Source: Lachnospiraceae bacterium (GTDB taxonomy: Bacteria > Bacillota > Clostridia > Lachnospirales > Lachnospiraceae). From it: a stretch of 40,768 nt of DNA. A program made the translations under genes and the position numbers. Location of the stretch: assembly GCA_024683645.1 (NCBI GenBank), contig JAIKYA010000033.1, positions 1 through 40,768 of the forward strand, in the 5' to 3' direction. Of the stretch, positions 1,241-39,444 are shown piece after piece. The notes under the pieces were generated by a model. That model was given only the letters and a program-made list of their open reading frames with translations. It had not been told where the DNA came from and searched no databases. Position 1 is the stretch's first letter. The number at the start of each line of letters is the position of its first letter.

Positions 1241-1242
1241 GA

Positions 1243-2040: not shown

Positions 2041-2084
2041 CGGGACCGGCCCGGATAGCGCTTTTGTGACAAGGAGAGTATACA

Positions 2085-2606: not shown

Positions 2607-2651
2607 GAGCCTTATTAAGAATACAGGGAAATAAGCGAGGTGACTGTTTAA

Positions 2652-3677: not shown

Positions 3678-3680
3678 TAA

Positions 3681-6144: not shown

Positions 6145-6172
6145 GAACAGGGGATAGCGGGGAGGTTTTCGG

Positions 6173-6442
6173 ATGAGTATAGATACAATTACAGAGATAA
6201 TCTCACAGGCCCTGTATACCGTGATCATCACAGTGGCTCCGCCTCTGCTGGTATCACTTATCGTAGGCCTGATAGTGAGTATATTCCAGACCGTCACTTC
6301 CATACAGGAGCAGACGCTGACCTTTGTTCCGAAAGTCATCGCGATCTTTCTGGTGCTGATAGTGGCAGGTCACTGGATGCTGAATAACATGATCACGTTT
6401 ATGGAAGATCTGTGGTCTGATTTTGCGTTATATATCAGGTAG
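6173..6442 (+). CDS. fliQ: Flagellar export gate protein FliQ
   Basis: An 89-residue protein with two transmembrane helices (about residues 16-38 and 54-75), matching the FliQ/SpaQ family in length and in the PPLLVSLIVGLIVSIFQ and QEQTLTFVPK motifs. It belongs to the helical FliP-FliQ-FliR export gate. A GGGGAGG ribosome binding site precedes ATG 6173. The stop overlaps the fliR start codon. Confidence 0.96.
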   Translation: MSIDTITEIISQALYTVIITVAPPLLVSLIVGLIVSIFQTVTSIQEQTLTFVPKVIAIFLVLIVAGHWMLNNMITFMEDLWSDFALYIR

Positions 6443-7242: not shown

Positions 7243-8351
7243 TGCTTGAGCTTGAGCTCCAGTTCTTTGCAAAAGAAGGACCGGGCGGAGAAAAAACCGA
7301 GGAGCCTACCAGTAAAAAGCTGGAGGATGCGAGAAAAGAAGGACAGGTAGCAAAAAGCACGGAGTTTGCTTCCAGCCTTACGCTGCTTGCGTTCTTTTTG
7401 CTTCTGCGTATCTGGATGACGGTGCTTTCCGGCCAGCTGCGGGAGCTGTTCGGCGGCTTCTACAACCGTTTTCATTATTTCGCCGACATGCCGTCATATG
7501 AGGACCGGCACGGAGAATATGCTTCCCTGGCCGGCTTTGCTTTGCTTAGGGTATTTATAATGATCGCACCGTTTCTGCTGGCCGGTTTCGTGATCTGCTT
7601 CGTAGCGGATCTGGTTCAGGTCAAATGGAAGCCTACGAGCAAGCCGCTGAAGCCCAAATTCAGCAAGCTGAATCCCATCAACGGCTTTAAACGCATCTTT
7701 TCGCTGCAGAAGCTGGTGGAACTGCTGAAATCCATAGTAAAGATTGCGATTGTAGTCATCGTGGTATATAATCAGCTTAAGGATAAATGGCCGCTGATCT
7801 TCAAATTATATGACATGCCGCTTCTGCAGGGAGTGATGGTTGCGGGCAAGCTGCTGATAGATACCGGTTTCCTGATCTCGCTGATCTTCCTGGTCGTGGC
7901 ATTTGCCGATTTTGCTTTCCAGAAGTGGAAATTCCATGAAGATATGAAGATGACCAAGCAGGAAGTAAAGGAAGAATATAAATCGACCGAAGGTGATCCT
8001 CAGATCAAGTCAAAGATAAAATCGAAGATGATGGAAGCGTCGAGGCGGCGTATGATGCAGAGTGTACCACAGGCGGACGTGGTCATCACAAACCCTACGC
8101 ATTATGCCGTGGCTCTGCGTTATGACAAAGAAATAGCGCCCGCCCCTTATGTCGTGGCGAAGGGAGTGGATCTGCTGGCGCAGAGGATCAAAGAGATAGC
8201 CAGAGAGCATGATATACAGATAATGGAGAACAAGCCGCTGGCAAGAGCACTTTATTCAAATGTTGAACTGGGGGAGCAGATCCCCGAGGAACTGTACGTG
8301 GCTGTAGCCGAAGTCCTGGCTGCGGTATACAAGGCTACGGGAAGAGCATAG
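7242..8351 (+). CDS. flhB: Flagellar export switch protein FlhB
   Basis: A 369-residue protein with four transmembrane helices and a C-terminal cytoplasmic domain that contains the autocleavage motif NPTHYAVAL. Autocleavage at N-P switches export specificity from hook to filament subunits. The N-terminus includes the usual KTEEPTSKKLEDARKEGQ motif. The gene overlaps fliR by 1 nt; 66 nt separate it from flhA, which has its own strong AAGGGGGG site. All key residues are present. Confidence 0.97.
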   Translation: MLELELQFFAKEGPGGEKTEEPTSKKLEDARKEGQVAKSTEFASSLTLLAFFLLLRIWMTVLSGQLRELFGGFYNRFHYFADMPSYEDRHGEYASLAGFALLRVFIMIAPFLLAGFVICFVADLVQVKWKPTSKPLKPKFSKLNPINGFKRIFSLQKLVELLKSIVKIAIVVIVVYNQLKDKWPLIFKLYDMPLLQGVMVAGKLLIDTGFLISLIFLVVAFADFAFQKWKFHEDMKMTKQEVKEEYKSTEGDPQIKSKIKSKMMEASRRRMMQSVPQADVVITNPTHYAVALRYDKEIAPAPYVVAKGVDLLAQRIKEIAREHDIQIMENKPLARALYSNVELGEQIPEELYVAVAEVLAAVYKATGRA

Positions 8352-8417
8352 GAGTTTTAGACGAAGCAGTGATACAGCTATGTACTAAAGAAAACACGGA
8401 AAGGGGGGCAGGATAAG

Positions 8418-10457
8418 ATGAAAAAGATCACCGGTGATGCCGTTGTCGGTATCTATGTGCTTGCGGCATTTGTCATGTTTATCGTGCCCATTCCGAGCTT
8501 CCTTCTGGATATACTGCTGGCAGTGAACATGTCGGTAGCCTTTTCCGTTCTCTTTTCAACCATGTTTTCGCTTGAAGTTCTGGATATGTCGTTTTATCCG
8601 ACGATCCTTCTTTTTACGACACTGTTCAGGATAGCCCTGAACATCTCGTCGACCAGGCTTATACTGTCTACCGGTGATCCCGGCGTGGTGGTCACGACTT
8701 TCGGACAGTTCGTGGGCGGCGGCGATCTGATCATGGGTGTCATAGTTTTCGCGATACTGCTGATCGTTCAGTTCATGGTCATAAACAAGGGCTCCGAACG
8801 AGTGGCGGAAGTGACAGCAAGATTTACTCTTGATGCCATGCCCGGTAAGCAGATGGCTATCGATGCCGATCTGAACACCGGCGCCATAGATGATGCGGAA
8901 GCAAAAAGACGAAGGGATAAGATACAGGAAGAAGCGAGCTTCTTTGGTTCCATGGACGGTGCCGTGAAGTATGTTAAGGGAGATGCGACAGCAGGTCTTA
9001 TCATTACCGCAGTCAACCTCATAGGCGGTATTGCCATGGGTATGACCAGGCGCGGACAGAGCTTTGCCGATGCCCTGAATGCATACGGAGTGCTGACCAT
9101 AGGTGACGGTCTGGTCAGTGCCATACCCTCGCTTCTGATCTCACTTTCAACAGGTATACTGGTAACAAAAGGCGCCAAAAGCGCGGAATTCGGAAATGCG
9201 CTGCTTTCACAGCTTTTCTCGCTTCCGAAGTCTCTGTATTTTGTCGGTGCCACACTGATAGCGCTGAGCTTTACACCGCTGCCTTTTTTGATCTACTGTC
9301 CTCTCGGTATCGTATTTATCCTTGTGGGACGCAGGATGGCCTCGCAGATGAAGACTGCGGGAATCGAGCAGAAGGTTGAGGAAGAGGAGATAGCGGAAGC
9401 CGAAGAGATAAGGCGGCCGGAGAATGTAACCTCGCTTTTGCAGGTAGACCCCATAGAACTGGAATTCGGCTATGGTATCATACCGCTTGCCGATGCGGCT
9501 CAGGGCGGCGATCTGCTTGACCGCGTGGTCATGATCAGGCGGCAGATCGCACTTGAACTCGGTACCGTGGTACCCATCATACGACTGCGTGATAACATAC
9601 AGCTCAATCCCAACCAGTACATCATAAAGATCAAGGGTATACAGACCAGTGTAGGTGAGATACTCTTTAATCATTACCTTGCGATGAATCCCGGATACGT
9701 TGAGGAAGAGATAGCGGGTATTCCCACTATAGAGCCGTCGTTCAAACTGCCGGCACTCTGGATCACGGAAGGACAGAGAGAAAGAGCGGAATCCGTCGGC
9801 TATACGGTTGTGGATCCGCCTTCGATAATAGCCACACATCTGACCGAAGTCATCAGGCAGCATATAGCGGAGCTGCTGACCAGACAGGATGTACAGACTT
9901 TGGTGGATAATCTTAAAGAGAGCAATCCCTCCATTGTCGAAGAACTTGTGCCGAAGCTTCTGGGACTCGGTGAGATACAGAAAGTACTGCAGAATCTGCT
10001 TTCGGAAGGTATCTCGATCAGGGATCTGCTGACCATCTTCGAGTCACTTGCAGACCATGCGACGGTCACAAGAGATACTGATCTGCTTACCGAATATGTG
10101 AGACAGTCACTTAAGCGGGCCATCTCCAACAAATACTTTGCGGGTGAGTCTACGGTCAGCGTGGTCACGCTTGATCCGAAGCTTGAGCAGGAGATAATGG
10201 GCAGCGTAAAGCAGTCTGAGCAGGGCGCATATATCACTCTGGATCCCGAACGTATCAAGAGTATGATAGAGAGTGTAAAAAAAGAGACAGGAAAGCTTAC
10301 GGAGATGGGGAAGAGCGCGATAGTCCTGACTTCTCCGATTGTACGTATGTATTTCAAACGGCTGACGGAGGATTACTTCTCCGATCTGGTCGTGGTATCA
10401 TATAATGAAGTGGAGTCCGATGTGGAACTGCAGAGCGTCGGTATGGTGAGTGCGTAA
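8418..10457 (+). CDS. flhA: Flagellar export apparatus protein FlhA
   Basis: A 679-residue protein that forms the nonameric docking ring of the export apparatus. The N-terminal half has about eight transmembrane helices and the FHIPEP signature region (FRIALNISSTRLIL, then LDAMPGKQMAIDADLN). The C-terminal half is the cytoplasmic domain that receives chaperone-substrate complexes. Length is normal. flhF begins on the next base after the stop, so the pair is likely coupled. Confidence 0.97.
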   Translation: MKKITGDAVVGIYVLAAFVMFIVPIPSFLLDILLAVNMSVAFSVLFSTMFSLEVLDMSFYPTILLFTTLFRIALNISSTRLILSTGDPGVVVTTFGQFVGGGDLIMGVIVFAILLIVQFMVINKGSERVAEVTARFTLDAMPGKQMAIDADLNTGAIDDAEAKRRRDKIQEEASFFGSMDGAVKYVKGDATAGLIITAVNLIGGIAMGMTRRGQSFADALNAYGVLTIGDGLVSAIPSLLISLSTGILVTKGAKSAEFGNALLSQLFSLPKSLYFVGATLIALSFTPLPFLIYCPLGIVFILVGRRMASQMKTAGIEQKVEEEEIAEAEEIRRPENVTSLLQVDPIELEFGYGIIPLADAAQGGDLLDRVVMIRRQIALELGTVVPIIRLRDNIQLNPNQYIIKIKGIQTSVGEILFNHYLAMNPGYVEEEIAGIPTIEPSFKLPALWITEGQRERAESVGYTVVDPPSIIATHLTEVIRQHIAELLTRQDVQTLVDNLKESNPSIVEELVPKLLGLGEIQKVLQNLLSEGISIRDLLTIFESLADHATVTRDTDLLTEYVRQSLKRAISNKYFAGESTVSVVTLDPKLEQEIMGSVKQSEQGAYITLDPERIKSMIESVKKETGKLTEMGKSAIVLTSPIVRMYFKRLTEDYFSDLVVVSYNEVESDVELQSVGMVSA

Positions 10458-11729
10458 ATGGTTATCAAGAAATTTCAAGGGAAAACAGAAGCCGAAGCCA
10501 TAGTCCTGGCAAAAAAGGAACTGGGGGATGACATTACGGTCATCCATTCCAGGAACGTAAAGCCGAAGGGCTTCTTTGCCTTCTTTAAAAAGATGCTGGT
10601 TGAGATCACCGTTGCTAAAGATGAGGAAGATGAAAAGCGGGAGAAGGACAGTATAAAAGAAGGTGTGGCAGCCATAGATGCCGCAAGGGCCGTGGCTGAA
10701 GAAAAGGCTGCTGCAAAGAAGAGCGTGCCCGAGAAAAAGCCTGCCGAGAAGGCGGCAACAGCTGAGGGCAGGAGCATTGATCTGAAAGCAGACGCAAAAG
10801 CTGACAGCCTTGCCGTGGAAGCCCGTCTTGATAATATACAGAGTCTTCTCGAGCAGAAGCTTTCCGTACAGGAGCGCGAGAAAAAGGCAGAAGCCGAGAA
10901 GAGCGTTAAGCCTGAGCAGGACGATGCGAAGACAAAGGAGCTTATGGATTTCACCAAGCTTCTTTATAACACGCTGATCGATAATGAGGTGGAAGAGAAG
11001 TTTGCGAATGAGCTGATCGGCGAGGTGGAGCAGAATTTCGGCAGTAATGTAAATGTGGAACATATACTGTCCCATATCTATCAGAAGATCATACTGAAAT
11101 ACGGTAAGCCCGAGACCATAGAGCCGGCAGAGCGAAATGCAAAAGCAGTATTTTTTATAGGACCTACCGGTGTCGGAAAAACCACCACCCTCGCAAAGCT
11201 GGCGAGCCGCTTCAAACTGACCGATAATAAACGTATAGCCCTGTTTACGACTGATACCTACAGGATATCCGCTACTGATCAGTTAAAGACTTATGCGAAC
11301 ATAATGGGTGTGCCTTTCCATGTTATATATACTCCGGAGGAGCTTCTGGAAGAATATGAGAGATATAAGGATTATGACTTTATCCTCATAGATACGGCAG
11401 GGCATTCGCCGCATAATACGGAGCAGAAAGAGGATATGGAAAAATTCATCCGTGTGCTTGAAGGCGTGGCACAGACCGAGAATTATCTGGTCCTGAGCGC
11501 TACCACCAAGTACAAGGATTTGCTGAAGATCTGTGATGTTTACAGGGAAATGACGGGGTACAGACTGATCTTTACGAAGCTGGATGAGACCGAGTGCCAC
11601 GGTAATCTTTTGAATGTGCGCATGCATACAATGGCGCCCATGAGCTATGTTACCAACGGCCAGAATGTACCTGACGATATAGAAGTGTTCAATCCGCAGA
11701 ATGCGGTAAAGCGTCTGCTGGGAGGTTGA
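10458..11729 (+). CDS. flhF: Flagellar SRP-type GTPase FlhF
   Basis: A 423-residue SRP-family GTPase that sets number and position of flagella. An N-terminal basic domain (about residues 1-60) is followed by a long alanine/glutamate/lysine-rich, probably flexible region (about 60-165). The NG domain has the P-loop GPTGVGKTT at residues 235-243, DTAGHS as the G3 motif, and TKLDE as the G4 motif. It directly follows flhA and precedes its regulator flhG. Confidence 0.95.
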   Translation: MVIKKFQGKTEAEAIVLAKKELGDDITVIHSRNVKPKGFFAFFKKMLVEITVAKDEEDEKREKDSIKEGVAAIDAARAVAEEKAAAKKSVPEKKPAEKAATAEGRSIDLKADAKADSLAVEARLDNIQSLLEQKLSVQEREKKAEAEKSVKPEQDDAKTKELMDFTKLLYNTLIDNEVEEKFANELIGEVEQNFGSNVNVEHILSHIYQKIILKYGKPETIEPAERNAKAVFFIGPTGVGKTTTLAKLASRFKLTDNKRIALFTTDTYRISATDQLKTYANIMGVPFHVIYTPEELLEEYERYKDYDFILIDTAGHSPHNTEQKEDMEKFIRVLEGVAQTENYLVLSATTKYKDLLKICDVYREMTGYRLIFTKLDETECHGNLLNVRMHTMAPMSYVTNGQNVPDDIEVFNPQNAVKRLLGG

Positions 11730-11733
11730 AGTT

Positions 11734-12618
11734 TTGGATCAGGCTGAACAGTTAAGAAACCGAATAAAGTCAGGCGGCGGTAAGATGCGCCCGCTTGCAA
11801 GGGTGATGACGGTGACAAGCGGCAAGGGCGGTGTCGGCAAGTCCAACACGGCCATTAATCTTGCCCTGCATTTTAAGAAGCTGGGCAAACGTGTCATCAT
11901 ACTTGATGCCGACTTCGGGCTGGCCAACATAGAGATAATGTTCGGCACCGTTCCGAAGCATAATTTAAGTGACCTTATATATCAGGGGAAATCGATAACC
12001 GAGATAATCACCTGGGGACCGGGAGAAGTAGGCTTTATTTCCGGAGGCTCAGGTATAGCAGGACTGTCCAATCTCGGGCGTGAATATCTTACATACATCA
12101 TACAGAACCTTGCACAGCTTGATGCCATTGCGGATGTGATCATCATCGATACGGGTGCGGGCATAGCTGATGCTGTATTGGAATTTCTGGTGGCGAGCGG
12201 GGAAATACTTCTGATCACCACGCCGGAACCCACGTCCATCACGGATTCATATTCGCTGCTTAAGGCCCTGAACAGACATCCGAGATTCTCAAGAGAAAAT
12301 TCACAGATAAAGGTGATAGCCAACAGGGTGGAAAATCCCGAAGACGGACGGAGCCTTTATAACAAGCTGAATGCAGTCGTAGGGCGTTTCCTGGGACTTC
12401 CTCTTGAATATATGGGGGCCGTGCCTCAGGATAAATATCTGGCACAGGCGGTAATGCAGCAGAAACCCGTTTCACTTGAACATCCGAATGCAAAGAGTGC
12501 ACTGGCTTATCAGGAGATAGCCATGAAGCTTATGAACATGGAAACAGAAGGTAAGATAAAGAAAAGGGGGATGGCCGCATTTTTCTCTCACATCGTGGCC
12601 AATAAGAAAACATTATGA
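11734..12618 (+). CDS. flhG: MinD-like ATPase FlhG (YlxH)
   Basis: A 294-residue ParA/MinD-family ATPase. The deviant Walker A is KGGVGKSN (from K31), and the Walker B-like region is VIILDADFGLANIE. It normally stimulates FlhF GTPase and limits flagellar number. The start is TTG 11734, supported by GGGAGG 8 nt upstream and by the N-terminal DQAEQLR motif known from FlhG/YlxH proteins, which activates FlhF. The last 4 nt overlap the PilZ gene. Confidence 0.94.
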   Translation: MDQAEQLRNRIKSGGGKMRPLARVMTVTSGKGGVGKSNTAINLALHFKKLGKRVIILDADFGLANIEIMFGTVPKHNLSDLIYQGKSITEIITWGPGEVGFISGGSGIAGLSNLGREYLTYIIQNLAQLDAIADVIIIDTGAGIADAVLEFLVASGEILLITTPEPTSITDSYSLLKALNRHPRFSRENSQIKVIANRVENPEDGRSLYNKLNAVVGRFLGLPLEYMGAVPQDKYLAQAVMQQKPVSLEHPNAKSALAYQEIAMKLMNMETEGKIKKRGMAAFFSHIVANKKTL

Positions 12619-13349
12619 TAAATATAGAAGACGTGGTAAGACCCGGTGACCGCTGTGATTTCGAGACCATACCCGATAAGTTTGACAAAGATATAGAGGG
12701 TGAGAAAAAGTACTACATCACAAAAGTCTACGATGTCAATGATGACGATACCGTATCACTGGTGATGCCCATCGACAAGACCAGACTGGTGGTTCTTTCC
12801 GAGGGCGAGGAATATGATATGTATTTCTATGCAGGCAAGGGAATCTATGCCTGCCGCGCTCGCGTTATAGACCGCCTGAAAGACGAGAATGATATACCGG
12901 TCGCCGTAGTCGAGCTGCTTACGGATCTTAAAAAGCATCAGCGCCGCGAGTATTACCGCTATACCTGTGTGGTCGAAATGAACACCCGTCAGCTGCCTGA
13001 GTGGGAAGAAACTGATTTCATGGAACATAACAGGCTCGACATACTGGCAGAATGTAAGGAAAAAAGCACCATAGTCGATATAAGCGGCGGCGGCATACGC
13101 TTCGTATCTGCCGAAGACTATGAATCCGGCCGTCTGGTCAACTGCGTTTTCGTTATCAGCCTCAAGGGTACAAAAAAGACACATAATCATGTCATGCGTA
13201 TACTTTCTGTCACAGAGGTTCCCAACAATGCCGGTATGAAGGAATACCGGGGACAATTCATCTACATCGCAAACAGCGACCGTGAGGAGATCATCAGCTT
13301 CATCTTTGAAGAGGAGCGCAGGATCCGGGCCAAGATGAACGGGTATTGA
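12615..13349 (+). CDS. PilZ-domain flagellar brake protein, YcgR-like
   Basis: A 244-residue protein with an N-terminal YcgR-type beta domain (about residues 1-100) and a C-terminal PilZ domain. The two c-di-GMP-binding motifs are intact: RxxxR at R111-R115 (within RREYYR) and DxSxxG at D155-G160 (DISGGG). Proteins of this kind bind c-di-GMP and slow the motor by contacting MotA or the switch. It is the last gene of the flagellar operon, overlapping flhG by 4 nt, which supports a motility role. A GGDEF cyclase occurs 12 kb downstream in this window. In several Clostridia che genes follow here; in this genome the operon terminates instead. Confidence 0.92.
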   Translation: MINIEDVVRPGDRCDFETIPDKFDKDIEGEKKYYITKVYDVNDDDTVSLVMPIDKTRLVVLSEGEEYDMYFYAGKGIYACRARVIDRLKDENDIPVAVVELLTDLKKHQRREYYRYTCVVEMNTRQLPEWEETDFMEHNRLDILAECKEKSTIVDISGGGIRFVSAEDYESGRLVNCVFVISLKGTKKTHNHVMRILSVTEVPNNAGMKEYRGQFIYIANSDREEIISFIFEEERRIRAKMNGY

Positions 13350-22657: not shown

Positions 22658-24982
22658 ATGGATATAGAAAAGATACTTGCGGAATATGATGCGATGTTTT
22701 CGGTAAACAAACCTGCCGAGATACTTTCGTTCCTTTTGCAGAAGGTTGATATGGCAAGGGAGAGGCACGATGCGGCAGCTCTCCTGATACTGCTCAACGA
22801 GACGATAGGTTTCTGCCGTGATGCATCTTTTAAGGAAGAGGGCATAAGGGCATGCCTGGAACTTGAGAGTCTTCTTCATGATATGGACATGGACGGGACC
22901 ATAGAGGCGGCTACTACTTTTTTGAACCTGGGCAATGCATACCGCGGTTTCGGGATGTATGAAGAATCCGCAAAAAGATACAGTATCTGCGAAGAGATGT
23001 TTGAAAATATGCTTGTGCCCGGAGACTTCCTGTTTTCCGGGCTTTATAATAACAGAGGCCTTCTTTACCAGGAGATGAAAGACTGGGATGCAGCTGTTGA
23101 AGAGTTTAAGAAGGCAATAGAGATAGCGGATATATATCCGGAACACAGGATAGAATCGGCTACCTCGCGTGCCAATCTGGCCGCTGCCATCATAGAGGGC
23201 AAACCGGAGGCACGTCAGGAAGCGGCTTCGGTACTGAAGGAAGCCTGTGAGCGTTTTGAAGCTGAAGGCGGAGATGATTTTCATTACAGCGCAGCTCTTG
23301 CTGCACTCGGAAGCCTGTATTTTTATGAGGAGAGTTTTGATAAGTCTGCGGCCTGCTTTAAAAAGGCTATGGATGTGCTGTATAAAGGGACGGGCGAAAG
23401 CGAGTCATACAGACGCGTAAAGGAAAACTATGAACTTGCACGCAGGCGGCTGCAGGATAAAAAGATACTGAGCAGGACTGTTAAGAATGCAGAGGATTTC
23501 TATGAAAAGTATCTTTATCCGCTTATAAAGGAGAAATGTCCCGCTGCACTGGAGCGTGTCGCCATAGGTTATTCCGGTGAGGGAAGTGAACATTTCGGCT
23601 ATGACGATGAGACATCTACGGATCATGACTTTGTAAAGGGCTGTGTGATATGGCTTACGGAAGAGACCGCGGCACTGTACGGTCCCGAGTTATCCAAGCT
23701 TTATGATGATGCCTATATGGCCTGCTTTAAGGAAGAACCCGATCTGTCGCTTATGCGGCAGGGAGTGATGCTTGTCGACGATTATTTTGAGAGACTGACA
23801 GGGCTTATGAATGTCAGCTCCAGAACAGACGGGGGAGGCCTCGACGAAGCACTGTATGGGCTGGACGAGGAACAGCTGGCAGGCATAGCGGCGGCGGTGA
23901 ACGGCAGGCTCTTTATGGACAGTGACGGCACTCTCACGCGCATAAGGGAGTATTTTATCAAGGGTATGCCCGAGGAGTTCAGGAGGCGGAAGCTCGCAAC
24001 TCTGCTGCATATCTTCTCACAGGCAGGACAGTATAACTACATGCGCTGTATAAAGCGCGGGGACAGGCTGACAGCAGGGCTTTATGAAGCAAGGGCGGCA
24101 GAGTCTGCGCTGAAGCTGGTACATTATTTAAACCGCAGATATCCGCCGTATATAAAATGGCTTAAGCGCAGTGCCAAAGAACTGGATGCTGCCGCTGTGG
24201 TGGCGGATATGCTGGAAGCTGTTTCGGATATGACGGAAAGCAGCGATAAGGCGCTGGCCTTCGATATAATCGCTGCGCATATACTGGAAGAGCTTAAATC
24301 TCAGGATCTGATCGCCGATTATGATAAGGCCGATCCTTTCGCGGACAGGTATGTTGCTGAAACAGCCGGACTCGGAGGCAGGAAAATGACAAAGGATGAG
24401 CTGATAGAAAAGATAGTCCTGGAAGAGTGGAAGCAGTTTGACAAAACGATAAACGAAGGCGGACGTGCCGACTGTCAGGACAACTGGGAGACTTTTTCGG
24501 TGATGAGAAAAAGCCAGTACCTTGTATGGGATGAGAGCCTGCTGCGTTCATTCTACAAGGATCTGACTTCGGGCAGAAACCTTATAACCGAAAAGTACGG
24601 CAGGATGATGGAGTCAACAGCACCGGCACGTTACGAAGAGATAAAGGATAACTTCCCCGTGCTTTCGGAAGAGCGAAGACAGCTGCAGGAGGGTATCATT
24701 GCTGTTCAGGTCGGCATGATGGAAAGCTTTGCGGCAAGGTTTCCGAAGATGGCAGGAAACGCAAGGAGCATCCATACTTCCGAGGATACGGAATTTGATA
24801 CTTCTTATGAAACTTATCTTCGCGGGGAGATAAGTACTTACTCGGACGAAACGCTGCTTGGTTACGGCAGGCTTCTTGCTGCTTTTGCAAAAGACGGCAG
24901 GAACATCGCGTATGAGATAATGAACAATACCGCAAGATTACTCGGATATGCAGGCGTAGAAGATGCGGAAGAAAAATTATAG
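22658..24982 (+). CDS. TPR-DUF4037-DUF4125 fusion protein
   Basis: A 774-residue soluble protein with three parts. Residues about 1-270 are tetratricopeptide-like helical repeats (for example NRGLLYQEMKDWDAAVEEF). Residues about 285-545 match DUF4037, a nucleotidyltransferase-like family, with GEGSEHFGYDD and STDHDF near residues 306-325 and a later GQYNYMRCIKRGD helix. Residues about 575-770 match DUF4125, with GGRADCQDNWETF, MRKSQY, and TSYETYLRGE. The domain names are from memory of family patterns. Function is unknown. It begins 4 nt after rseP, where ispG and polC often lie in related genomes, and runs into rimP. Confidence 0.8.
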   Translation: MDIEKILAEYDAMFSVNKPAEILSFLLQKVDMARERHDAAALLILLNETIGFCRDASFKEEGIRACLELESLLHDMDMDGTIEAATTFLNLGNAYRGFGMYEESAKRYSICEEMFENMLVPGDFLFSGLYNNRGLLYQEMKDWDAAVEEFKKAIEIADIYPEHRIESATSRANLAAAIIEGKPEARQEAASVLKEACERFEAEGGDDFHYSAALAALGSLYFYEESFDKSAACFKKAMDVLYKGTGESESYRRVKENYELARRRLQDKKILSRTVKNAEDFYEKYLYPLIKEKCPAALERVAIGYSGEGSEHFGYDDETSTDHDFVKGCVIWLTEETAALYGPELSKLYDDAYMACFKEEPDLSLMRQGVMLVDDYFERLTGLMNVSSRTDGGGLDEALYGLDEEQLAGIAAAVNGRLFMDSDGTLTRIREYFIKGMPEEFRRRKLATLLHIFSQAGQYNYMRCIKRGDRLTAGLYEARAAESALKLVHYLNRRYPPYIKWLKRSAKELDAAAVVADMLEAVSDMTESSDKALAFDIIAAHILEELKSQDLIADYDKADPFADRYVAETAGLGGRKMTKDELIEKIVLEEWKQFDKTINEGGRADCQDNWETFSVMRKSQYLVWDESLLRSFYKDLTSGRNLITEKYGRMMESTAPARYEEIKDNFPVLSEERRQLQEGIIAVQVGMMESFAARFPKMAGNARSIHTSEDTEFDTSYETYLRGEISTYSDETLLGYGRLLAAFAKDGRNIAYEIMNNTARLLGYAGVEDAEEKL

Positions 24983-25501: not shown

Positions 25502-25531
25502 TTGACAAGTATACGGATGAAAAGCTAAAAT
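25502..25531 (+). promoter_or_regulatory. Sigma-A type promoter of the signalling operon
   Basis: A perfect -35 box TTGACA (25502-25507) is separated by 18 bp from TAAAAT (25526-25531). The start codon of the diguanylate cyclase follows at 25569 after GTGGGGG. A second TATAAT (25538-25543) lacks a matching -35. Confidence 0.7.
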
Positions 25532-25568
25532 AACCAATATAATGTTATCATAAGTTAAGTGGGGGCAT

Positions 25569-26792
25569 ATGGATTATAAAGCGCTGGTGCTCGACACCAT
25601 GAGGGGGAAGAGCGGAGAGTATCTTGTTACCGATATGGACGGCGAGATCCTTTTCCGTAATAATGTTGAGAGATTCACCGACAGGCAGTGGAAGGCCTGG
25701 GCCGAATTCCACATTGGGAGTCCGGCGGCTGTTAAAAAAGAGATCGTATGGGAGATCTCTGACCGCAGAAACCAGGCTTATTTCCGTGTGCTTTCGGTTC
25801 CGGCCGAAGCGGAAGGGAAAAGGCTTCTGGTTCATCATATCTATAATACAAGTGATTACGCAAATCTTCTAAGGGAAGTTTCCGGATATTCCAAAGAATG
25901 GCAGGAATTAAGCAAGATGCAGACCAATGTCCTGGAGCGTCTTTCCGGTGATTATATGGACTGCATGACGGTGATCATAGAATCACTTGATGTTGACAGT
26001 GCCGTTCTTTTTATCGAAAGAGAAAAGTGCATTGAGCAGTATACGATCGAAAAAGGGAATGAGGAGGCCACTCTTGCACGCATAGAAAAAGATAAATGGC
26101 CTTCGGGCAAAAAAGGTAGCCGCAGGTTCCTGCCCGGTTTCGGGACCAAGGGCTTTATCTGTTATGTAAGCGCCAAGACTGTCGACGGCGCCAGATATTC
26201 GCTCTTTATCAACGATGACGATACCGAATCCGAAGAGCCGTTCCAGATGCAGTATAATGTGATACGGCTCTTCATAGAAAACTGCATCATGCGTGAGCAG
26301 ATAATCTATGAGAGCGAACATGACCAGCTTACCGGACTGTACAATAAAGGCAAATATCTGGCCATGATGGACGATTTTTTCCCGAATTGCAGACAGCTTG
26401 CCGTATACAACATGGACGTGAATTATCTGAAACGGACCAACGATACTTACGGCCACGAAGCCGGAGATGCCCTGATCGTCAAAGCAGCAAAGAGTCTTTT
26501 GATGGTAGAACGCGAAAAAGTCCGGGGATTCAGGATGGGTGGAGACGAGTTTATGCTTCTGGCCTGGGATCTGACAGAGGAAGAAGCCGAACAGATCAGG
26601 ATCGACTGGAGAGAAGCGCTTGCAGAGCTCAATACCGCTCAGGGCGAGATAGAGTGTGTGATAGCCTGCGGTCTGGCTTACGGTGAGGGAGAGATAGATA
26701 TCAAGGAACTCTTAAGAGTAGCTGATGAGCGTATGTACGAGAACAAAGTAGAGATCAAAAAAGCGCGCGGGGATGATCCCAACGCAAGATAA
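25569..26792 (+). CDS. Diguanylate cyclase (PAS/GAF-like sensor + GGDEF)
   Basis: A 407-residue cytoplasmic protein. Residues about 12-100 look PAS-like (GEYLVTDMDGEILFRN), residues about 115-245 GAF-like, and about 250-400 form a GGDEF domain. The active-site motif GGDEF is intact at residues 324-328, with the upstream D(x)NYLKRTND substrate loop. It should make c-di-GMP from two GTP. The inhibitory I-site RxxD is not complete: R315 is present but position 318 is valine, so product inhibition may be absent. It is the first gene of the signalling operon, and the flagellar PilZ protein at 12615 is a plausible receptor. Confidence 0.9.
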   Translation: MDYKALVLDTMRGKSGEYLVTDMDGEILFRNNVERFTDRQWKAWAEFHIGSPAAVKKEIVWEISDRRNQAYFRVLSVPAEAEGKRLLVHHIYNTSDYANLLREVSGYSKEWQELSKMQTNVLERLSGDYMDCMTVIIESLDVDSAVLFIEREKCIEQYTIEKGNEEATLARIEKDKWPSGKKGSRRFLPGFGTKGFICYVSAKTVDGARYSLFINDDDTESEEPFQMQYNVIRLFIENCIMREQIIYESEHDQLTGLYNKGKYLAMMDDFFPNCRQLAVYNMDVNYLKRTNDTYGHEAGDALIVKAAKSLLMVEREKVRGFRMGGDEFMLLAWDLTEEEAEQIRIDWREALAELNTAQGEIECVIACGLAYGEGEIDIKELLRVADERMYENKVEIKKARGDDPNAR

Positions 26793-26812
26793 TAAAGAAA
26801 AGAGGAAAAGGT

Positions 26813-27112
26813 ATGACCATCAATACTAAGCAGGAAGGATCCAAGATGACCATTGCACTCGAAGGAAGACTTGATACACTTACTGCCCCGGATCTTGAGA
26901 CAGTGGTCAAAGAACAGCTTCACGGTATTTCGGATCTTGTATTCGATCTGAAGGATATTGCCTACGTTTCATCAGCAGGACTTCGTGTGCTGCTGGCAGC
27001 CCAGAAGATCATGAACCGCCAGGGAAGCATGGTGATACGTAACGCCAATGAAGACGTTATGGAGATTTTTGATGTTACCGGTTTTGTAGATATCCTTAAC
27101 ATAGAGTCCTGA
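26813..27112 (+). CDS. STAS-domain anti-anti-sigma factor (RsbV/SpoIIAA-like)
   Basis: A 99-residue single STAS domain. The phospho-acceptor region is YVSSAGLR, with S54 at the position equivalent to RsbV Ser56 and S53 adjacent. In partner switching, the unphosphorylated form binds an RsbW-type kinase and releases its client. It lies 20 nt after the cyclase and is the natural partner of the kinase at 32401, of the kinase domain fused to the MATE protein, and of the phosphatase at 30334. AGAGGAAAAGG precedes ATG 26813. Confidence 0.92.
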   Translation: MTINTKQEGSKMTIALEGRLDTLTAPDLETVVKEQLHGISDLVFDLKDIAYVSSAGLRVLLAAQKIMNRQGSMVIRNANEDVMEIFDVTGFVDILNIES

Positions 27113-27140
27113 TCCGGTTTCTGAAGACAAGGGGGTATTT

Positions 27141-28523
27141 ATGAAAAACGATGACATGCTTCTTCTGTCGCGTACTGCCGATCGTATGCAGGCCGGCGCT
27201 GGGGCGGATGTTATAGTTCTCCATATCAATCATTGTATGGAGAATTCTTTTGAATTCAGCAGGATACTTGGAAGGGTATTTAAGAAAGTTGTCTTTATCG
27301 GTGCACCGTATAATGAGAGGATCGTGCCGGTAGAGGACAGCTTTGTCGGTTATTATGCCCATACCGAAGATGGCAGCAAGGCCGTCTACAGGGGAAACGA
27401 AAGAATAGTAAACGTTGAGGGCAGTTTTATCGAGGTGGTAAGATCGCTTGTGGAACAGGCTGTAAAGCTTGATATATATCCGGCTCTTTCGGAAGGAGCA
27501 AAGCTTTTGGTCATTGAAGACGGAGGATATCATTACCAGGCGTTTCGGGATCTTTTCGAAAAATATCCCCTGCTTGAGAGCGCGACTCTCGGAGCGGTGG
27601 AACAGACCACTTCCGGAACAGTGCGGGGCTACAATCTGGGCAGGACAAAGGAGTATGCTTATCCGCATTTAAGTGTCGCAAGAAGCGACATAAAGATGAA
27701 CGTTGAGTCACGTTTTATAGCTGAACGTGTTATCGAGGAACTCAGTTCCTTCTTATACGGTATAAACACATTTCTTGATTTTCATAAGGTTTTGCTTATA
27801 GGCTACGGTGTTATCGGCAGACGTATAGCACAGGTGCTGACGGAAAGGCCGGTCAAGCTCATGGTATGCGAGAAGAATCCTTATATCTTTGGCCTTGCAG
27901 CCGGTGAAGGGATGGAGACCTATGAGACTACCGAGCCGGAATGCTTCAACGCCGATACCATAGTGCTGGGTAATACCGGCTGTGCGTCATTTGATGAGAA
28001 AATGCTTATGGATTTCATGCGCAGCAAATCGCATAAGCTTTATCTCGCCAGCAGCTCCTCGCAGGATGAGGAATTCTGGATATTCCTTTCAATGCTCCGC
28101 GGAGATATCCCTTATCCCGCAGGCGTATCACTTAAGGAACAGTTTGAATACACAGGCGTTGACGAGTATGTTTTTGAATATGATGATGACGGCAAGATCC
28201 GTGAAAAGATAGTATATCTTATTGCGAAAGGTCTGCCGGTAAACTTTTTCAGGCCGGATGTTATCAGCCTCACAAACTGCATGATAGATCTGATCTTTAC
28301 GGAGATACTGATGCTCGGCAAATGGCTTTGCGAAAACAGGGATGCCAGAAAAAAGCTCTATCTCCTGGGAGTAAACGAGGAGATCAGCAGCTATTGCAAT
28401 GAAAAAGAACTCTTCAGGGACTGGCTGGAGGTGTACGGCTTTTCTTATGAAGATGATATGGCAAGGCTTATGGATGCACATCCCATGAGCAAAAAACTCC
28501 GCGCATATATGCTGGAGGAGTAA
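27141..28523 (+). CDS. Divergent S-adenosylhomocysteine-hydrolase-like protein
   Basis: This 460-residue protein aligns by eye, along most of its length, with S-adenosylhomocysteine hydrolase (SAHH). Landmarks with near-identical spacing are: H31 for human H55; IEDGG with D127 for D131; EQTTSG with E154 for E156; K185 for K186; E189 for D190; the NAD-binding loop GYGVIG (221-226) with acidic E244; NTGC (278-281); and a C-terminal KGLPVNF segment. Human N181 is replaced by A180, N191 by S190, and the GHP motif histidine (H353) by arginine. A changed or lost activity, or a ligand-sensing role, is likely. It lies between the STAS gene and the MATE-kinase fusion, so a regulatory function is inferred. 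It is too divergent to be the housekeeping enzyme. Confidence 0.72.
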   Translation: MKNDDMLLLSRTADRMQAGAGADVIVLHINHCMENSFEFSRILGRVFKKVVFIGAPYNERIVPVEDSFVGYYAHTEDGSKAVYRGNERIVNVEGSFIEVVRSLVEQAVKLDIYPALSEGAKLLVIEDGGYHYQAFRDLFEKYPLLESATLGAVEQTTSGTVRGYNLGRTKEYAYPHLSVARSDIKMNVESRFIAERVIEELSSFLYGINTFLDFHKVLLIGYGVIGRRIAQVLTERPVKLMVCEKNPYIFGLAAGEGMETYETTEPECFNADTIVLGNTGCASFDEKMLMDFMRSKSHKLYLASSSSQDEEFWIFLSMLRGDIPYPAGVSLKEQFEYTGVDEYVFEYDDDGKIREKIVYLIAKGLPVNFFRPDVISLTNCMIDLIFTEILMLGKWLCENRDARKKLYLLGVNEEISSYCNEKELFRDWLEVYGFSYEDDMARLMDAHPMSKKLRAYMLEE

Positions 28524-28527
28524 GCGG

Positions 28528-30321
28528 ATGCAGGAACAGGCTGTTTTGGAAAACCGTATAGTCCGGGATACTTTTATGAAATTCTTTTTCCCTACGGTTG
28601 CCAGTTCTATCACTTTGTCAGTCATATCCATGACTGATCTGGTGATAGCAGGCAATCTCGTGGGAGAGACAGGACTTTCCGCGATCAGTCTGGGACTCCC
28701 GGTCGTAATATTTGCACAGATAGTATATGCGCTCTTCGGGATGGGCGGGGCTATCTTTCTTTCCGTCCATATGGGACGCGGTGACAGGGCATACTGCAGC
28801 AGGATATTTACCGTATCCATGTTTTCCTCACTTATCATAGGCGTGATCGCGGCGGTTCTGGGTACCGTATTTCTGGATGGGCTGGTCACGATACTCGGAG
28901 CTACGGACGTAGCAACTAAGGGAGCGGCAGAAAGCTATATAGGCGTGCTTTTTCTGGGGCTGCCTGTTCTGATACTTTCTCCTGTGATGGTGACTTTCTT
29001 AAGAAACGATAATGAACAGAAGTATGCGATGCTGTGTGTTGTTGTCGCAGGTCTTTCGAACATAGTATTTTCGGTATGGTTTGTTCTTTCATTCGGAATG
29101 GGCTGCGCGGGCATTGCAGCAGGAACGGTTGTTGCGGAAGCGCTGTGCTGTCTGCTGGCTTCATTTAAGCTGTTTTCGAAAAAAAGGATGTTCGGCCTCG
29201 TGAAGCTTCCGACAGCAAAAGAGACGGCAAAGCTAAATCTGAGCATCATCAAATTCGGTATCACGCTGGCTGTCATTTTTGCATCACAGATATTGCTTAC
29301 GATCGTTGTAAACCATGCGCTGGGCAACTACGGAGGCCTGGAAGGTATCGCAATATATGCGGTCATTAAGTATCTTATCAATTTCCTTTTTGCGCTGTTT
29401 GACGGTGTAACGGGATCCATTCAGCCCATGCTCGGGATATATTACGGAGAGCGCGAAGAAGAGAATGTCCGCAGGACCGCAAAGATAGGTGCGATCGTAA
29501 TGCTTGTGATATCCCTCGCGATGGCGGGGCTCATGTTTGCATTCGGACGTTTGCTCTGCCTGCTTTTCCATATAACAGGGGAGGGGCTTACAAGGGAGAT
29601 GCTGTTTGCGCTCAGAGTGATCTCGGTATACTGTCCGCTCATGGCGCTTACCACTTTCCTGAATTCTTTTTACCGCTGCACGGGAAAAACGGGTGAAGCC
29701 TTTATAATAAGCATACTGGACAATCTGATCTTTCCGGTAAGCCTGGTCATCATCCTTTCGATGAATTACGGACTGCACGGTGTATGGTACGGACTGCTCG
29801 CAGCATCACTGGCGACAAACAGCTGCATCATTCTATACTGCCTTATATCCCGCAAGGGCTTCCTTATGCTTGATAAAAATGAATTCAAACGTGAAGAAGG
29901 GGAATTCCGCCGCATACTTGCTGCGGAGAAAGAAAATATACCCGAACTGCTCGGCGAGATCGAGGTATATTGCGATGAAGCGGGGATAGGTCCCAAACAG
30001 GCATATTATATAAGCCTGGTCATTGAGGAACTGGTTGTTAATGTAGTGAATATGGCCGGGGATAACAGAAAATCCGACTATGTTGATATACTTATAGCCA
30101 GGGAAGGCGGCAGATCCAGGCTCAGGGTCAGGGATAATCTGACGCAGTTCGATCCCACTGAAGAAGTCGGGGATATGGAGGATGTACGGAGCGGGCTTCT
30201 GGATGATGCATCCGAAAAGACAGCTGTCAATGAACTCGGAATAGGCATTGTAAAAAAGATAGCATCGGAGTACAGTTACAGAAGGACGATAGGATATAAC
30301 AACTTTATGGTGGTTTTGTAG
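28528..30321 (+). CDS. MATE-family transporter fused to RsbW-like HATPase domain
   Basis: A 597-residue two-part protein. Residues about 10-445 form a 12-helix MATE efflux transporter. Residues about 455-597 form a GHKL ATPase domain of the RsbW/SpoIIAB type. Its N-box has E500, E501 and N505 (VIEELVVNVVN), the G1 box is RVRDNLTQFDP, and the G2 box is NELGIGIVKKI. The frame is continuous and there is no stop or second ribosome binding site at the junction. This arrangement would put an anti-sigma-type kinase on the membrane under control of a transporter or ligand-binding pore. It starts 4 nt after the SAHH-like gene and ends 12 nt before the phosphatase. Confidence 0.88.
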   Translation: MQEQAVLENRIVRDTFMKFFFPTVASSITLSVISMTDLVIAGNLVGETGLSAISLGLPVVIFAQIVYALFGMGGAIFLSVHMGRGDRAYCSRIFTVSMFSSLIIGVIAAVLGTVFLDGLVTILGATDVATKGAAESYIGVLFLGLPVLILSPVMVTFLRNDNEQKYAMLCVVVAGLSNIVFSVWFVLSFGMGCAGIAAGTVVAEALCCLLASFKLFSKKRMFGLVKLPTAKETAKLNLSIIKFGITLAVIFASQILLTIVVNHALGNYGGLEGIAIYAVIKYLINFLFALFDGVTGSIQPMLGIYYGEREEENVRRTAKIGAIVMLVISLAMAGLMFAFGRLLCLLFHITGEGLTREMLFALRVISVYCPLMALTTFLNSFYRCTGKTGEAFIISILDNLIFPVSLVIILSMNYGLHGVWYGLLAASLATNSCIILYCLISRKGFLMLDKNEFKREEGEFRRILAAEKENIPELLGEIEVYCDEAGIGPKQAYYISLVIEELVVNVVNMAGDNRKSDYVDILIAREGGRSRLRVRDNLTQFDPTEEVGDMEDVRSGLLDDASEKTAVNELGIGIVKKIASEYSYRRTIGYNNFMVVL

Positions 30322-30333
30322 GAGGAGGGATTC

Positions 30334-32370
30334 ATGAAAGATATTTTTTCGGTATTCAGGAAAAAAGAATGGCTGATACGCATGATATGCGTGGGCATAC
30401 TGTTCATTGTCGTTGCACTGCCCTTCAAGACGCTGTTCACGCTGGTGCCGGGTATGACGGAAGTGCGTCCGGCCAATATGATACCGGTCGTATTCGGACT
30501 CCTTTGGGGACCCGCCGGAGCCTGGGGTATATCCATAGCAAACCTTATATCGGATATCATCAACAGCTTAAGCGGCGGCGGAGGAGTGGCTTCGCTTCTG
30601 AATCCCGTAAGCATGAAGATATTCATAGGCGGTTTTATAATCAATTTCTTCTATGCCTATCTGCCGTATAAGCTGTGGTACAGCCTTGATTTCGGACGCG
30701 GATATACAGTAAAGCCGCGACTGAGGAGCGTTAAGGAAATACTGAAATTTATCTATATCGTATTTGTGGATTCGCTGATAACGACAGTGCTGCTTTCGCT
30801 CCTGTTTGAGCATCTGGGCTTCCAGCAGTTTGGTTCCTCGGGCTTATTACTGTTCTTTAACAACTTTGACTTCGCGGTAATACTCGGAGTTCCCGCCTTG
30901 CTTCTGATCACCAGTAACCGCAGCGCCCAGTTCTGGACGCCGGTAACACCGGTTGCCGAAGGAGAAGAGACGGAAACCAGGAAAAAGGGCATAATGGATT
31001 ATATACCCGATGTGCTGCTTTTCCTCATCTGCGCTCTGGGTGTGGCTTATTTCATCATTGAAAGAACGAATGAGTTCGTGCTCGATCAGGATTCGGCGCT
31101 TCTTGTTACGATCTGCTTTGCGCTGTTCGAGATAATATACATATTCAAACCTGTAAGAGAAGTCCGGAGCGAGCGCTTCAGAGTCAATATAAGGACTATG
31201 TCAATAAGGGCAAAGGTGGTTCTTGGTTTCCTTCTTATCACGGTCTTCTCTGTGCTCATGGTAGGTGTGACAAGTTATCGGGCAGAGCGTGAGGTGGCGC
31301 AGGATGCCGTATCTCTGTGGGGGCATGTATATGCCGTGGTCGGCATTGCTCTGAACGTCATGTTCCTGGTTACGATCATTTTCCTGCGTTATGTAGAGAA
31401 AAGCATTACCCAGCCTCTTGAAGATCTGGCTGAACAGGTCGATGCTTTTGCAGAAAGAGATCACTATGCAGATGCGAACAGCGGATATAATGCATCCGAA
31501 GAATTTGTTTCCGCTAAAACGGGTGATGAGATAGAAGGTCTTTCCGACAGTTTCGGAAGGATGATGAATGATATAAATAATTATGTGTCAAACCTGACGG
31601 TGATCACGGCCGAAAAGGAAAGGATAGGAGCAGAGCTGAATGTCGCCACACAGATACAGGCGGATATGCTTCCGAGAATATTCCCGGCCTTTCCCGACAG
31701 GAAGGAATTCGATCTGTTTGCAACTATGGAACCTGCCAAGGAAGTGGGCGGTGATTTCTACGATTTCTTCCTGATAGATGATGATCATCTGGGAATGGTA
31801 ATGGCCGATGTGTCCGGAAAGGGTGTCCCTGCCGCACTGTTCATGGTGATCGCAAAGACTCTTATAAAGAACCGTGCACAGCTGGGCGGTACACCTGCAG
31901 AAGTGCTGGCTTATGCCAATACAGAGCTGTGTGAAGGAAATGAAGCCGAACTCTTTGTTACTGTATGGCTCGCGATCATGGAGATCTCAAGCGGTAAGGG
32001 AGTTGCTGCAAATGCGGGACATGAATATCCCGCCATACGCAGGGCATCGGGTGAATTTGAGCTTGTTAAGCACAAGCATTCACCGGCTGTTGCGACCATC
32101 GAGGGTATAAGATTCAGCGAGCATGAGTTTGAACTGCATCCGGGCGATACGCTGTATGTTTATACCGACGGTGTGCCCGAAGCTACTAATAAGAATGACG
32201 AGCTTTACGGTACGGAGCGTATGCTGGGAGCGCTCAATGCCGATCCAAATGCCACACCCGAGACATTGCTTAAAAATGTGCGCAGATCCATGGATGAGTT
32301 TGTGGGAGATGCGCCCCAGTTTGATGACATCACGATGCTGGCTTGCAAATATATCGGTAACGGAAACTGA
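30334..32370 (+). CDS. Membrane PP2C (SpoIIE/RsbU-type) phosphatase with ECF-S-like sensor
   Basis: A 678-residue protein. Residues about 15-200 are several transmembrane helices with a pattern (VRPANMIPVVFGLLWGPAGA, then ISDI) like the substrate-binding S components of ECF vitamin transporters. Further helices follow (about 220-285), then a chemoreceptor-like pair (about 295-355) and a HAMP-like segment (KSITQPLEDLAEQVDAF). Residues about 430-675 form the SpoIIE/PP2C domain with the metal motifs GGDFYD (D474, D477), ADVSGKG, DGVPEA and FDDITML. It should dephosphorylate the STAS protein at 26813 upon an external or membrane signal. Ligand type is unknown. Confidence 0.88.
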   Translation: MKDIFSVFRKKEWLIRMICVGILFIVVALPFKTLFTLVPGMTEVRPANMIPVVFGLLWGPAGAWGISIANLISDIINSLSGGGGVASLLNPVSMKIFIGGFIINFFYAYLPYKLWYSLDFGRGYTVKPRLRSVKEILKFIYIVFVDSLITTVLLSLLFEHLGFQQFGSSGLLLFFNNFDFAVILGVPALLLITSNRSAQFWTPVTPVAEGEETETRKKGIMDYIPDVLLFLICALGVAYFIIERTNEFVLDQDSALLVTICFALFEIIYIFKPVREVRSERFRVNIRTMSIRAKVVLGFLLITVFSVLMVGVTSYRAEREVAQDAVSLWGHVYAVVGIALNVMFLVTIIFLRYVEKSITQPLEDLAEQVDAFAERDHYADANSGYNASEEFVSAKTGDEIEGLSDSFGRMMNDINNYVSNLTVITAEKERIGAELNVATQIQADMLPRIFPAFPDRKEFDLFATMEPAKEVGGDFYDFFLIDDDHLGMVMADVSGKGVPAALFMVIAKTLIKNRAQLGGTPAEVLAYANTELCEGNEAELFVTVWLAIMEISSGKGVAANAGHEYPAIRRASGEFELVKHKHSPAVATIEGIRFSEHEFELHPGDTLYVYTDGVPEATNKNDELYGTERMLGALNADPNATPETLLKNVRRSMDEFVGDAPQFDDITMLACKYIGNGN

Positions 32371-32400
32371 GTGTTTCCTCGTTTATAAAGGGGGTTGAAA

Positions 32401-32811
32401 TTGCTGCAGGAACTTGAGATAGAAGCAAAAGATGAAAACCTCGATACTGTTCTGGATATGGTTAACGGACAGATGGAGGAGATGGGTTTTCTGCCGAAGA
32501 CTATGATAAGGATGGCTGTGGCGGTAGAGGAGATATTTGTCAATATATCTCATTATGCGTACGGAGATAAGACCGGCAGTGCAAAGATCATAGTGGAATC
32601 GTCAGAGGAACCTAAGGGTGTCTTCATTACTTTTATCGACAGCGGTATTCCCTATGATCCGCTGGAGAAGGAAGATCCCGATATCACGCTGTCCGCAGAG
32701 GAAAGACAGATAGGCGGTCTGGGTATCTATATGGTTAAACAGACTGTTGATGATATAGTTTATCGTTATGAGGACGGAAAGAACATCCTGCGGATTTTTA
32801 AAGGGGTGTAA
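32401..32811 (+). CDS. RsbW/SpoIIAB-like serine kinase (anti-sigma type)
   Basis: A 136-residue GHKL kinase. The N-box is VAVEEIFVNISHYAYG, G1 is FIDSGIPYDP, and G2 is IGGLGIYMVKQ. It should phosphorylate the STAS protein and sequester a client when that protein is phosphorylated. I chose TTG 32401 because AAAGGGGG is six bases upstream; TTG 32395 abuts that site. This is the last gene of the operon, and no sigma factor gene follows, so the client is unknown. Confidence 0.9.
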   Translation: MLQELEIEAKDENLDTVLDMVNGQMEEMGFLPKTMIRMAVAVEEIFVNISHYAYGDKTGSAKIIVESSEEPKGVFITFIDSGIPYDPLEKEDPDITLSAEERQIGGLGIYMVKQTVDDIVYRYEDGKNILRIFKGV

Positions 32812-38146: not shown

Positions 38147-38623
38147 TTGGGTCTTGGCAAATTGATAACATCGATCACGATGACGGTCTTTTACATCCTT
38201 GTTTTCAGGATATGGCTGATCGTTTACCAAGAGCCTGAGAAGGTGTCTCTTAGCATATGTCTGTATGTACTTGCTTTAATAAGGATAATCCTTTGCCTGA
38301 TGCCTCAGAATAATTGGACAGGAAACGAAAGCCCTGTCATATGGGGAATTATCAGGAATATCCCTTTTTTAGCGATCGGGGTGATCATAGTCTGTCTTTA
38401 CTATACAAAGAGAAAAGATAACAGAGACTTATCCCCGATATGGCTGTATGTCCTTTTGTCATTCTTGTTTTATATGCCTGTTGCAACGGCAGTATCTTAT
38501 TTTCCAATACTGGGCATGCTGATGATACCTAAAACGATCTGTTATATCCTTATCGTATGGAGCTTTTACCGATATAATAAGGGAAAAGATTGTATGTTAG
38601 TAGAAACAGGTCTTAAGAAATGA
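38147..38623 (+). CDS. Small integral membrane protein (unknown)
   Basis: A 158-residue protein with four to five transmembrane helices (roughly 8-27, 36-52, 68-88, 102-122, 124-143). Motifs such as LCLMPQNNW, WGIIRNIPF and PILGMLMIPKTICYI look conserved-family-like, but I cannot name the family. No ribosome binding site supports ATG 38147, and the first 15 residues look different from the rest, so the true 5' end may be lost or begin elsewhere. It overlaps the next gene by 4 nt (ATGA), an original operon arrangement. Confidence 0.55.
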   Translation: MGLGKLITSITMTVFYILVFRIWLIVYQEPEKVSLSICLYVLALIRIILCLMPQNNWTGNESPVIWGIIRNIPFLAIGVIIVCLYYTKRKDNRDLSPIWLYVLLSFLFYMPVATAVSYFPILGMLMIPKTICYILIVWSFYRYNKGKDCMLVETGLKK

Positions 38624-39444
38624 AGATAGCCATCATATCAGATACTCATTCCCTGCTTCGGGATGAAGTCATGGAAAAGATAAGAGACTGCGATATCATC
38701 CTGCATGGCTGTGATATAGCTTCAAAAGAAACCGTGGAAGCCTTTGAAAAGCTTGCACAAAAGAAGGGCCGACGACTGGATCTTATGCTTTGCGACCTTG
38801 GAGATTTTGCGTCAGTGCGGGATTTTGTAAGGCATGTTAAGGAAAGGTATGGGAGAGTAGATATTCTTGTTAATAATGCGGGATTCATCTCTCTTAATAG
38901 ACAGGAAACCAAAGAAGGCCTTGAGCGGCAGTTCGGGATTAACCATATAGGGCATTTTCTCCTGACAACTGAGCTCCTTGACATGATGGAAAAAGGGGCA
39001 AGGATCGTAAATGTTGCCTCAGGAGCACACAAAGCCGGCAGGATCCATTTTGATGATATCAACTTAAAGCATGGTTACAATGTGGTTAAGGCATACTCGC
39101 AGAGCAAGCTTGCAAATGTTCTGTTCACTAAAGAACTTGCCAGGCGTCTGTCAGATAAGGGAATAACAGTAAACTGCTGTCATCCGGGTGCTGTTGCGAC
39201 AAATATGGGAGTAGACAGGGATACTGGATTTGGAAGGACGATCACCGGTATTTTAAAGCCCTTTTTCCTGACTCCGGAAGAAGGAGCCAGAACGGCTGTA
39301 TTTCTGGCGGTTGATGGATCAGTAAAAGATATAAGCGGAGAATATTTCTACAAATGCAAACCTGCAAATTCTTCGAAAAGATCAAAGGATACAGAGCTTG
39401 CACGGAAGCTTTTTGAGTTAAGTGAAAATATAGTCAGCAAATGA
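38620..39444 (+). CDS. Chimeric phosphoesterase/short-chain dehydrogenase ORF
   Basis: One 274-residue frame joins two unrelated pieces. Residues 1-45 (MKIAIISDTHSLLRDEV, ILHGCDIAS) are the start of a YfcE-type metallophosphoesterase with its first metal ligands D8 and H10 only. Residues about 50-274 are a short-chain dehydrogenase from the second beta-alpha unit onwards: CDLGDFASVRDF, VDILVNNAGF, the catalytic-type Y-xxx-K (AYSQSKLAN) and HPGAVATN. The SDR nucleotide-binding motif TGxxxGIG is missing. Neither half should be active in its usual role. A deletion of about one gene fused them in frame. Confidence 0.8.
   Translation: MKIAIISDTHSLLRDEVMEKIRDCDIILHGCDIASKETVEAFEKLAQKKGRRLDLMLCDLGDFASVRDFVRHVKERYGRVDILVNNAGFISLNRQETKEGLERQFGINHIGHFLLTTELLDMMEKGARIVNVASGAHKAGRIHFDDINLKHGYNVVKAYSQSKLANVLFTKELARRLSDKGITVNCCHPGAVATNMGVDRDTGFGRTITGILKPFFLTPEEGARTAVFLAVDGSVKDISGEYFYKCKPANSSKRSKDTELARKLFELSENIVSK

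Follow-up and report, generated by a model that had tools for sequence, protein, structure and literature searches.

The window analysed here, a 40,768-nucleotide stretch of contig JAIKYA010000033.1 from a Lachnospiraceae bacterium, carries a cluster of six genes that we read, with moderate confidence, as a partner switch operating without a sigma factor and having a transporter as its client. Partner switches are known chiefly for the control of sigma factors and, lately, also for that of a diguanylate cyclase. The six open reading frames lie tightly packed on the + strand (25569–32811) between rimP and secG, with gaps of 20, 28, 4, 12 and 24 bp in gene order and 62 bp from the last frame to secG. 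They encode a diguanylate cyclase, a STAS protein, a protein resembling S-adenosylhomocysteine hydrolase (SAHH), a MATE transporter with an RsbW-like tail, a PP2C phosphatase and a free RsbW-like kinase; Pfam and NCBIfam matches, together with key motifs, confirm the domain types that a first-pass annotation, made from the sequence alone, had assigned to them.

A MATE transporter with an RsbW-like tail

The transporter gene (28528–30321, + strand) joins in one frame a MATE transporter (approximately residues 1–440) and an RsbW-like HATPase_c_2 domain (approximately residues 458–597), as the first-pass annotation had proposed. Two MatE stretches (MatE E 6e-28) and a near full-length MATE match (127 bits against the TIGR00797 cut-off of 147) are shared with MATE multidrug and metabolite exporters, while the C-terminal HATPase_c_2 domain (E 3e-12) is an addition that plain MATE proteins lack. 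To sample such fusions, a profile of the tail domain, built from the transporters of the seven core loci described below, was searched in 250 genomes of the family at E 1e-8. It matched in 50 of them, free kinases included, and many of the matches fell in frames of about 580–660 residues. We fetched 46 loci around frames of at least about 580 residues (17 of 20, 20 of 20 and the first 9 of 12 regions of three lists); shorter frames were not taken as fusions. The origin of the profile in the core loci, the 250 genomes covered and the size limit mean that the sample favours close relatives. A fusion was called in 44 of the 46 loci (none in L111 and L121), giving 49 targets outside the seven core loci, one of which (344 residues, L120) is cut by the edge of its locus and was still counted.

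Of these 49 fusions, 22, spread over 18 genomes, have a partner-switch gene no more than 5 kb away (PP2C near 16, STAS near 12, RsbW near 12, and at least two kinds near 13), whereas none of 42 plain MATE proteins in 40 control loci has such a neighbour (Fisher p 1.1e-7), the controls being strong matches among the matches listed, mostly one per genome, and not a random draw. The domain models behind these counts were each made from two to seven sequences of the core loci and were used with the best domain score per model. In a tree of 56 fusions and the 42 plain MATE proteins, all 56 fusions form a single clade (support 1.0) apart from the plain ones, so that the counts point to one origin with kept linkage rather than to independent events; the seven fusions linked to the SAHH-like gene form their own clade inside it (support 1.0). 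The first-pass annotation had left open whether the output was the cyclase, the SAHH-like protein or the transporter, and on the contrast between fusions and plain MATE proteins the transporter is a likely one.

The fused domain keeps the N-box residues and the aspartate to a high degree (Glu501 in 56 of 56, Asn505 in 47 and Asp536 in 53), but it has not kept the GG pair, each glycine of which is present in 20 of 21 free kinases, and the DxG glycine survives in 14 of the 56. This pattern fits best with a tail that serves as a binding domain and has weak or no kinase activity. The earlier proposal that two kinases could compete for one STAS protein becomes doubtful for the same reason, the glycine motifs of the free kinases being missing from the fused domain. 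The open-licence PubMed Central text searched showed no publication that describes a MATE protein fused to an RsbW-like domain or controlled by a partner switch. The transporter is the novel element of the cluster; for cyclases, control by such a switch already has a precedent in SiaABCD.

The switch proteins and their companions

The remaining switch components are all encoded, in agreement with the first-pass annotation, and have the residues expected of a partner-switching trio. The single-domain STAS protein (99 residues, 26813–27112, + strand; STAS E 3e-14, TIGR00377 above cut-off) has an SSAGL motif at residue 53; we take Ser54 to be its phosphosite, assuming that it corresponds to Ser58 of SpoIIAA, and the equivalent serine is kept in all 20 STAS proteins called in the compared loci. 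The free RsbW-like serine kinase (138 residues, TTG start, 32395–32811, + strand; HATPase_c_2 E 1e-20) carries the motifs EEIFVN, DSG and GGLG. The membrane PP2C/SpoIIE phosphatase (678 residues, 30334–32370, + strand; SpoIIE/PP2C E 6e-46) has the motifs GGDFYD, MADVSG, YTDG and QFDD in a catalytic domain at residues 482–672, preceded by an N-terminal membrane domain (about residues 6–203), further helices and a weak HAMP match (E 0.006, below cut-off). The N-terminus is predicted, tentatively, to fold like the S-components of energy-coupling factor (ECF) transporters such as QueT, BioY and ThiT, but here it is fused to a phosphatase; in three relatives, the same region gives weak matches to the QueT profile.

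Related combinations were seen elsewhere among the fetched loci. An exporter of EamA type that ends in an S-component-like domain (L087, 7427–9151), a member of another exporter family in a similar setting, is encoded upstream of a PP2C protein with the same S-component-like domain and an RsbW-like kinase, and a 323-residue protein (L092, 8872–9843) joins an S-component-like domain directly to a HATPase domain. Longer STAS proteins of about 390 residues (L082, 3087–4262; L093, 5977–7155; L121, 6275–7444) occur near MATE-HATPase or PP2C-kinase genes, and that of L082 also matches APH-type phosphotransferases.

In having a STAS protein with a phosphorylatable serine, an RsbW-like kinase and a PP2C/SpoIIE phosphatase, the cluster is like the RsbV/RsbW/RsbU-SpoIIE switches of sigma-B and sigma-F; it differs from them in the fusion of an RsbW-like domain to a MATE transporter and in the apparent lack of a sigma factor partner. 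As first annotated, no sigma factor is encoded in the cluster, and no protein in the genome passes the SigB/F/G cut-off (TIGR02980; best 122 of 234 bits), the best match being a motility sigma factor that belongs to the FliA/WhiG type (266 bits for that type, where the cut-off is 190) and is encoded beside CheC and CheD genes. Since the assembly (3.11 Mb in 203 contigs) is 91% complete with 5.75% contamination, this absence is no proof. Two further PP2C-kinase pairs are encoded on contigs C66 and C111, so sigma-free partner switches seem to be usual in this genome.

The cyclase (407 residues, 25569–26792, + strand; Pfam GGDEF E 7e-23) has an intact GGDEF motif at residue 324 and no RxxD inhibitory site, REKV standing where we presume that site to be. 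The SAHH-like protein (460 residues, 27141–28523, + strand) has the overall predicted fold of SAHH but probably is not a hydrolase of S-adenosylhomocysteine: its adenosylhomocysteinase matches are weak (E 2e-10, far below cut-off; at best 40 of 275 and 39 of 498 bits against the curated models), and the histidines of the GHFD and GHP motifs, as judged against the genome's own SAHH, are replaced in four of four SAHH-like proteins. At the first of these sites, Ser307 is invariant in six of six; the N-terminal histidine of SAHH was not placed, because the alignment is poor there. These residues presumably have active-site roles in SAHH, and with the two histidine motifs lost a part in the methyl cycle is unlikely for the SAHH-like protein. 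A true SAHH is encoded on contig C63, and we rejected the methyl-cycle enzyme as the simplest reading.

Conservation and genomic setting

In 84,980 species genomes, a pattern scan that reaches close relatives only yielded five loci with relatives of the SAHH-like protein (23 matched stretches), and a profile search added a sixth (genome G576, locus L011), for a total of seven loci with the window included. The genes of the SAHH-like protein, the MATE-HATPase fusion and the PP2C phosphatase are adjacent and in the same order in all seven. Around this core the other components vary. An RsbW-like kinase is present in five loci, free in three (window, L004 and L005) and attached C-terminally to PP2C in two (L007 and L008), with none found locally in L006, where a second PP2C protein with another N-terminus occupies its place, or in L011. 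STAS is encoded in four, upstream in the window, L004 and L005 and downstream in L008, and was not found near the core genes of L006, L007 and L011; these same four loci are the ones that encode STAS, kinase and phosphatase together. The cyclase occurs in two closely related loci, the window and L004, and since these are two of seven, cyclic di-GMP (c-di-GMP) is probably a local add-on to the cluster. The L005 contig starts about 400 bp before STAS, and a cyclase may lie farther out there. In L007 the SAHH-like gene (9995–11385) is split over two frames in the assembly and was for that reason excluded from alignments A1 and A6.

Besides the window, only L004, whose SAHH-like protein is 87% identical, has all six genes. 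A conserved six-gene unit is therefore rejected: the co-occurrence check suggested with the first-pass annotation, once run, gave the complete set in two of seven loci and the core of three genes in all seven. The further idea that one unit links c-di-GMP to the methyl cycle and to transport fares no better, given a cyclase in two loci and an SAHH-like protein devoid of two SAHH histidine motifs. Near the 49 other fusions, neither an SAHH-like gene nor a cyclase was called; the cyclase model, made from two sequences, was empty in all 86 fusion and control loci and is therefore possibly insensitive.

In overlapping samples of 299, 392 and 391 genomes, the SAHH-like protein was found in one (its own), two (its own and G576) and one (its own), respectively. 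A genome of the same genus (G004) has no such protein at the thresholds used and holds other genes in its secG region, and presence is thus patchy. A mobile island is unsupported: L004 shares the rimP and secG flanks of the window, phage records gave no match to the SAHH-like protein, and all 44 plasmid records matched were below 60% identity, one of them covering at least 80% of the query. The closest matches to the window are assemblies of Lachnospiraceae or Clostridiales, at least one of them from the rumen.

A promoter-like site (TTGACA-18-TAAAAT, 25502–25531, + strand) with 11 of 12 consensus bases lies upstream of the cluster. The single promoter of the first-pass annotation is no more than plausible, since the scan found 11 sites with at least 9 of 12 bases against 14.0 in shuffled sequences, weaker sites being no commoner than chance. 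Elsewhere in the window, a flagellar cluster (446–13349; gene names assigned from Pfam matches) comprises motA, motB, fliM, fliY-like, fliP, fliR, flhB, flhA, flhF-like (SRP54 GTPase) and flhG-like (ParA) genes and, at 12615–13349, the gene of a YcgR/PilZ-type c-di-GMP receptor, about 12 kb upstream of the switch genes. Directly before rimP, a 774-residue protein (22658–24982) combines TPR repeats with DUF4037 and DUF4125, and its position is kept in L004. A 274-residue frame at 38620–39444 has a short-chain dehydrogenase match (residues 27–235) and a weak metallophosphoesterase match in its first 46 residues.

Proposed mechanism and alternatives

The genes, their domains, the conserved linkage and the predicted folds are consistent with the following scheme. 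The PP2C phosphatase would sense a small molecule through its S-component-like membrane domain and strip the phosphate from Ser54 of STAS, which the free kinase would phosphorylate again. Unphosphorylated STAS may then dock onto the RsbW-like tail of the transporter, as modelled on the docking of STAS and anti-sigma factor in the classical switch, and alter its export activity. The SAHH-like protein would be a partner of the exporter with a putative NAD-binding fold that either makes or alters the exported compound or acts as a regulator; a partnership with transporters is described for human AHCYL1/IRBIT in animals, as outlined in PMC7558343, and is an analogy only. The cyclase would have been added upstream in the lineage of the window and would then probably be a further client of STAS. 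Extended to the family, the scheme becomes more tentative: in Lachnospiraceae and their relatives, one clade of MATE exporters may be gated directly by STAS through the tail, under a phosphatase driven by a captured vitamin-type receptor domain. A rare branch would include an SAHH-fold protein without hydrolase residues, which may either act as a nucleotide-responsive regulator or make the compound that is exported.

A known precedent would place the cyclase in the role of main client. In Pseudomonas aeruginosa, according to the published abstracts, SiaC binds and activates the diguanylate cyclase SiaD (PMC8457831), while SiaA and SiaB determine the phosphorylation state of SiaC (PMC7647112); SiaABCD, like the window, thus brings together a PP2C protein, a kinase, a STAS-like protein and a cyclase, with a client that is no sigma factor. 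By the same route, unphosphorylated STAS could activate the GGDEF protein here and the MATE and SAHH-like genes would be passengers, which would suit the intact GGDEF motif, the c-di-GMP receptor gene in the flagellar cluster and the fact that, among NCBIfam models, the window PP2C matches SiaA best, far below cut-off. Yet such a gene set stands in one cluster in two of the seven loci, the window and L004, whereas the MATE-HATPase and PP2C genes are in all seven, and the two-sequence model called no cyclase near the 49 other fusions. The window also differs from SiaABCD in using standard STAS and HATPase_c_2 families, in falling short of the SiaA and SiaD equivalog models (64.5 of 700 and 67.2 of 290 bits) and in having a transporter and an SAHH-like protein, neither of which the SiaABCD abstracts name. 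We consider a cyclase as main client unlikely. In another switch, SypA/SypE, the STAS protein has been proposed as the more downstream component, as outlined in PMC10120452.

The transporter might instead be the sensor, its tail reporting the substrate as a transport-coupled kinase or a sponge for STAS and the real client being encoded elsewhere. The retained N-box Glu/Asn and Asp of the fused domain would allow for this, and the PP2C-kinase pairs on C66 and C111 could share clients with the cluster; the lost glycine motifs, however, run contrary to an active kinase, and a sensor-like domain is already present on the PP2C protein, making this reading improbable to a similar degree. That regulatory genes and export genes are cotranscribed as mere neighbours, their proteins never in contact, would explain the loose linkage of STAS, kinase and cyclase, but it is very improbable when the RsbW-like domain sits on the MATE protein itself and partner-switch genes are found preferentially near such fusions.

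If transport is indeed the output of the switch, transporters bearing the switch's own binding domain would extend partner switching to the direct control of export and would open up for study a group of regulated exporters of gut-type bacteria that have so far gone unexamined. It would also suggest that a domain resembling an ECF receptor is able to drive a phosphatase.
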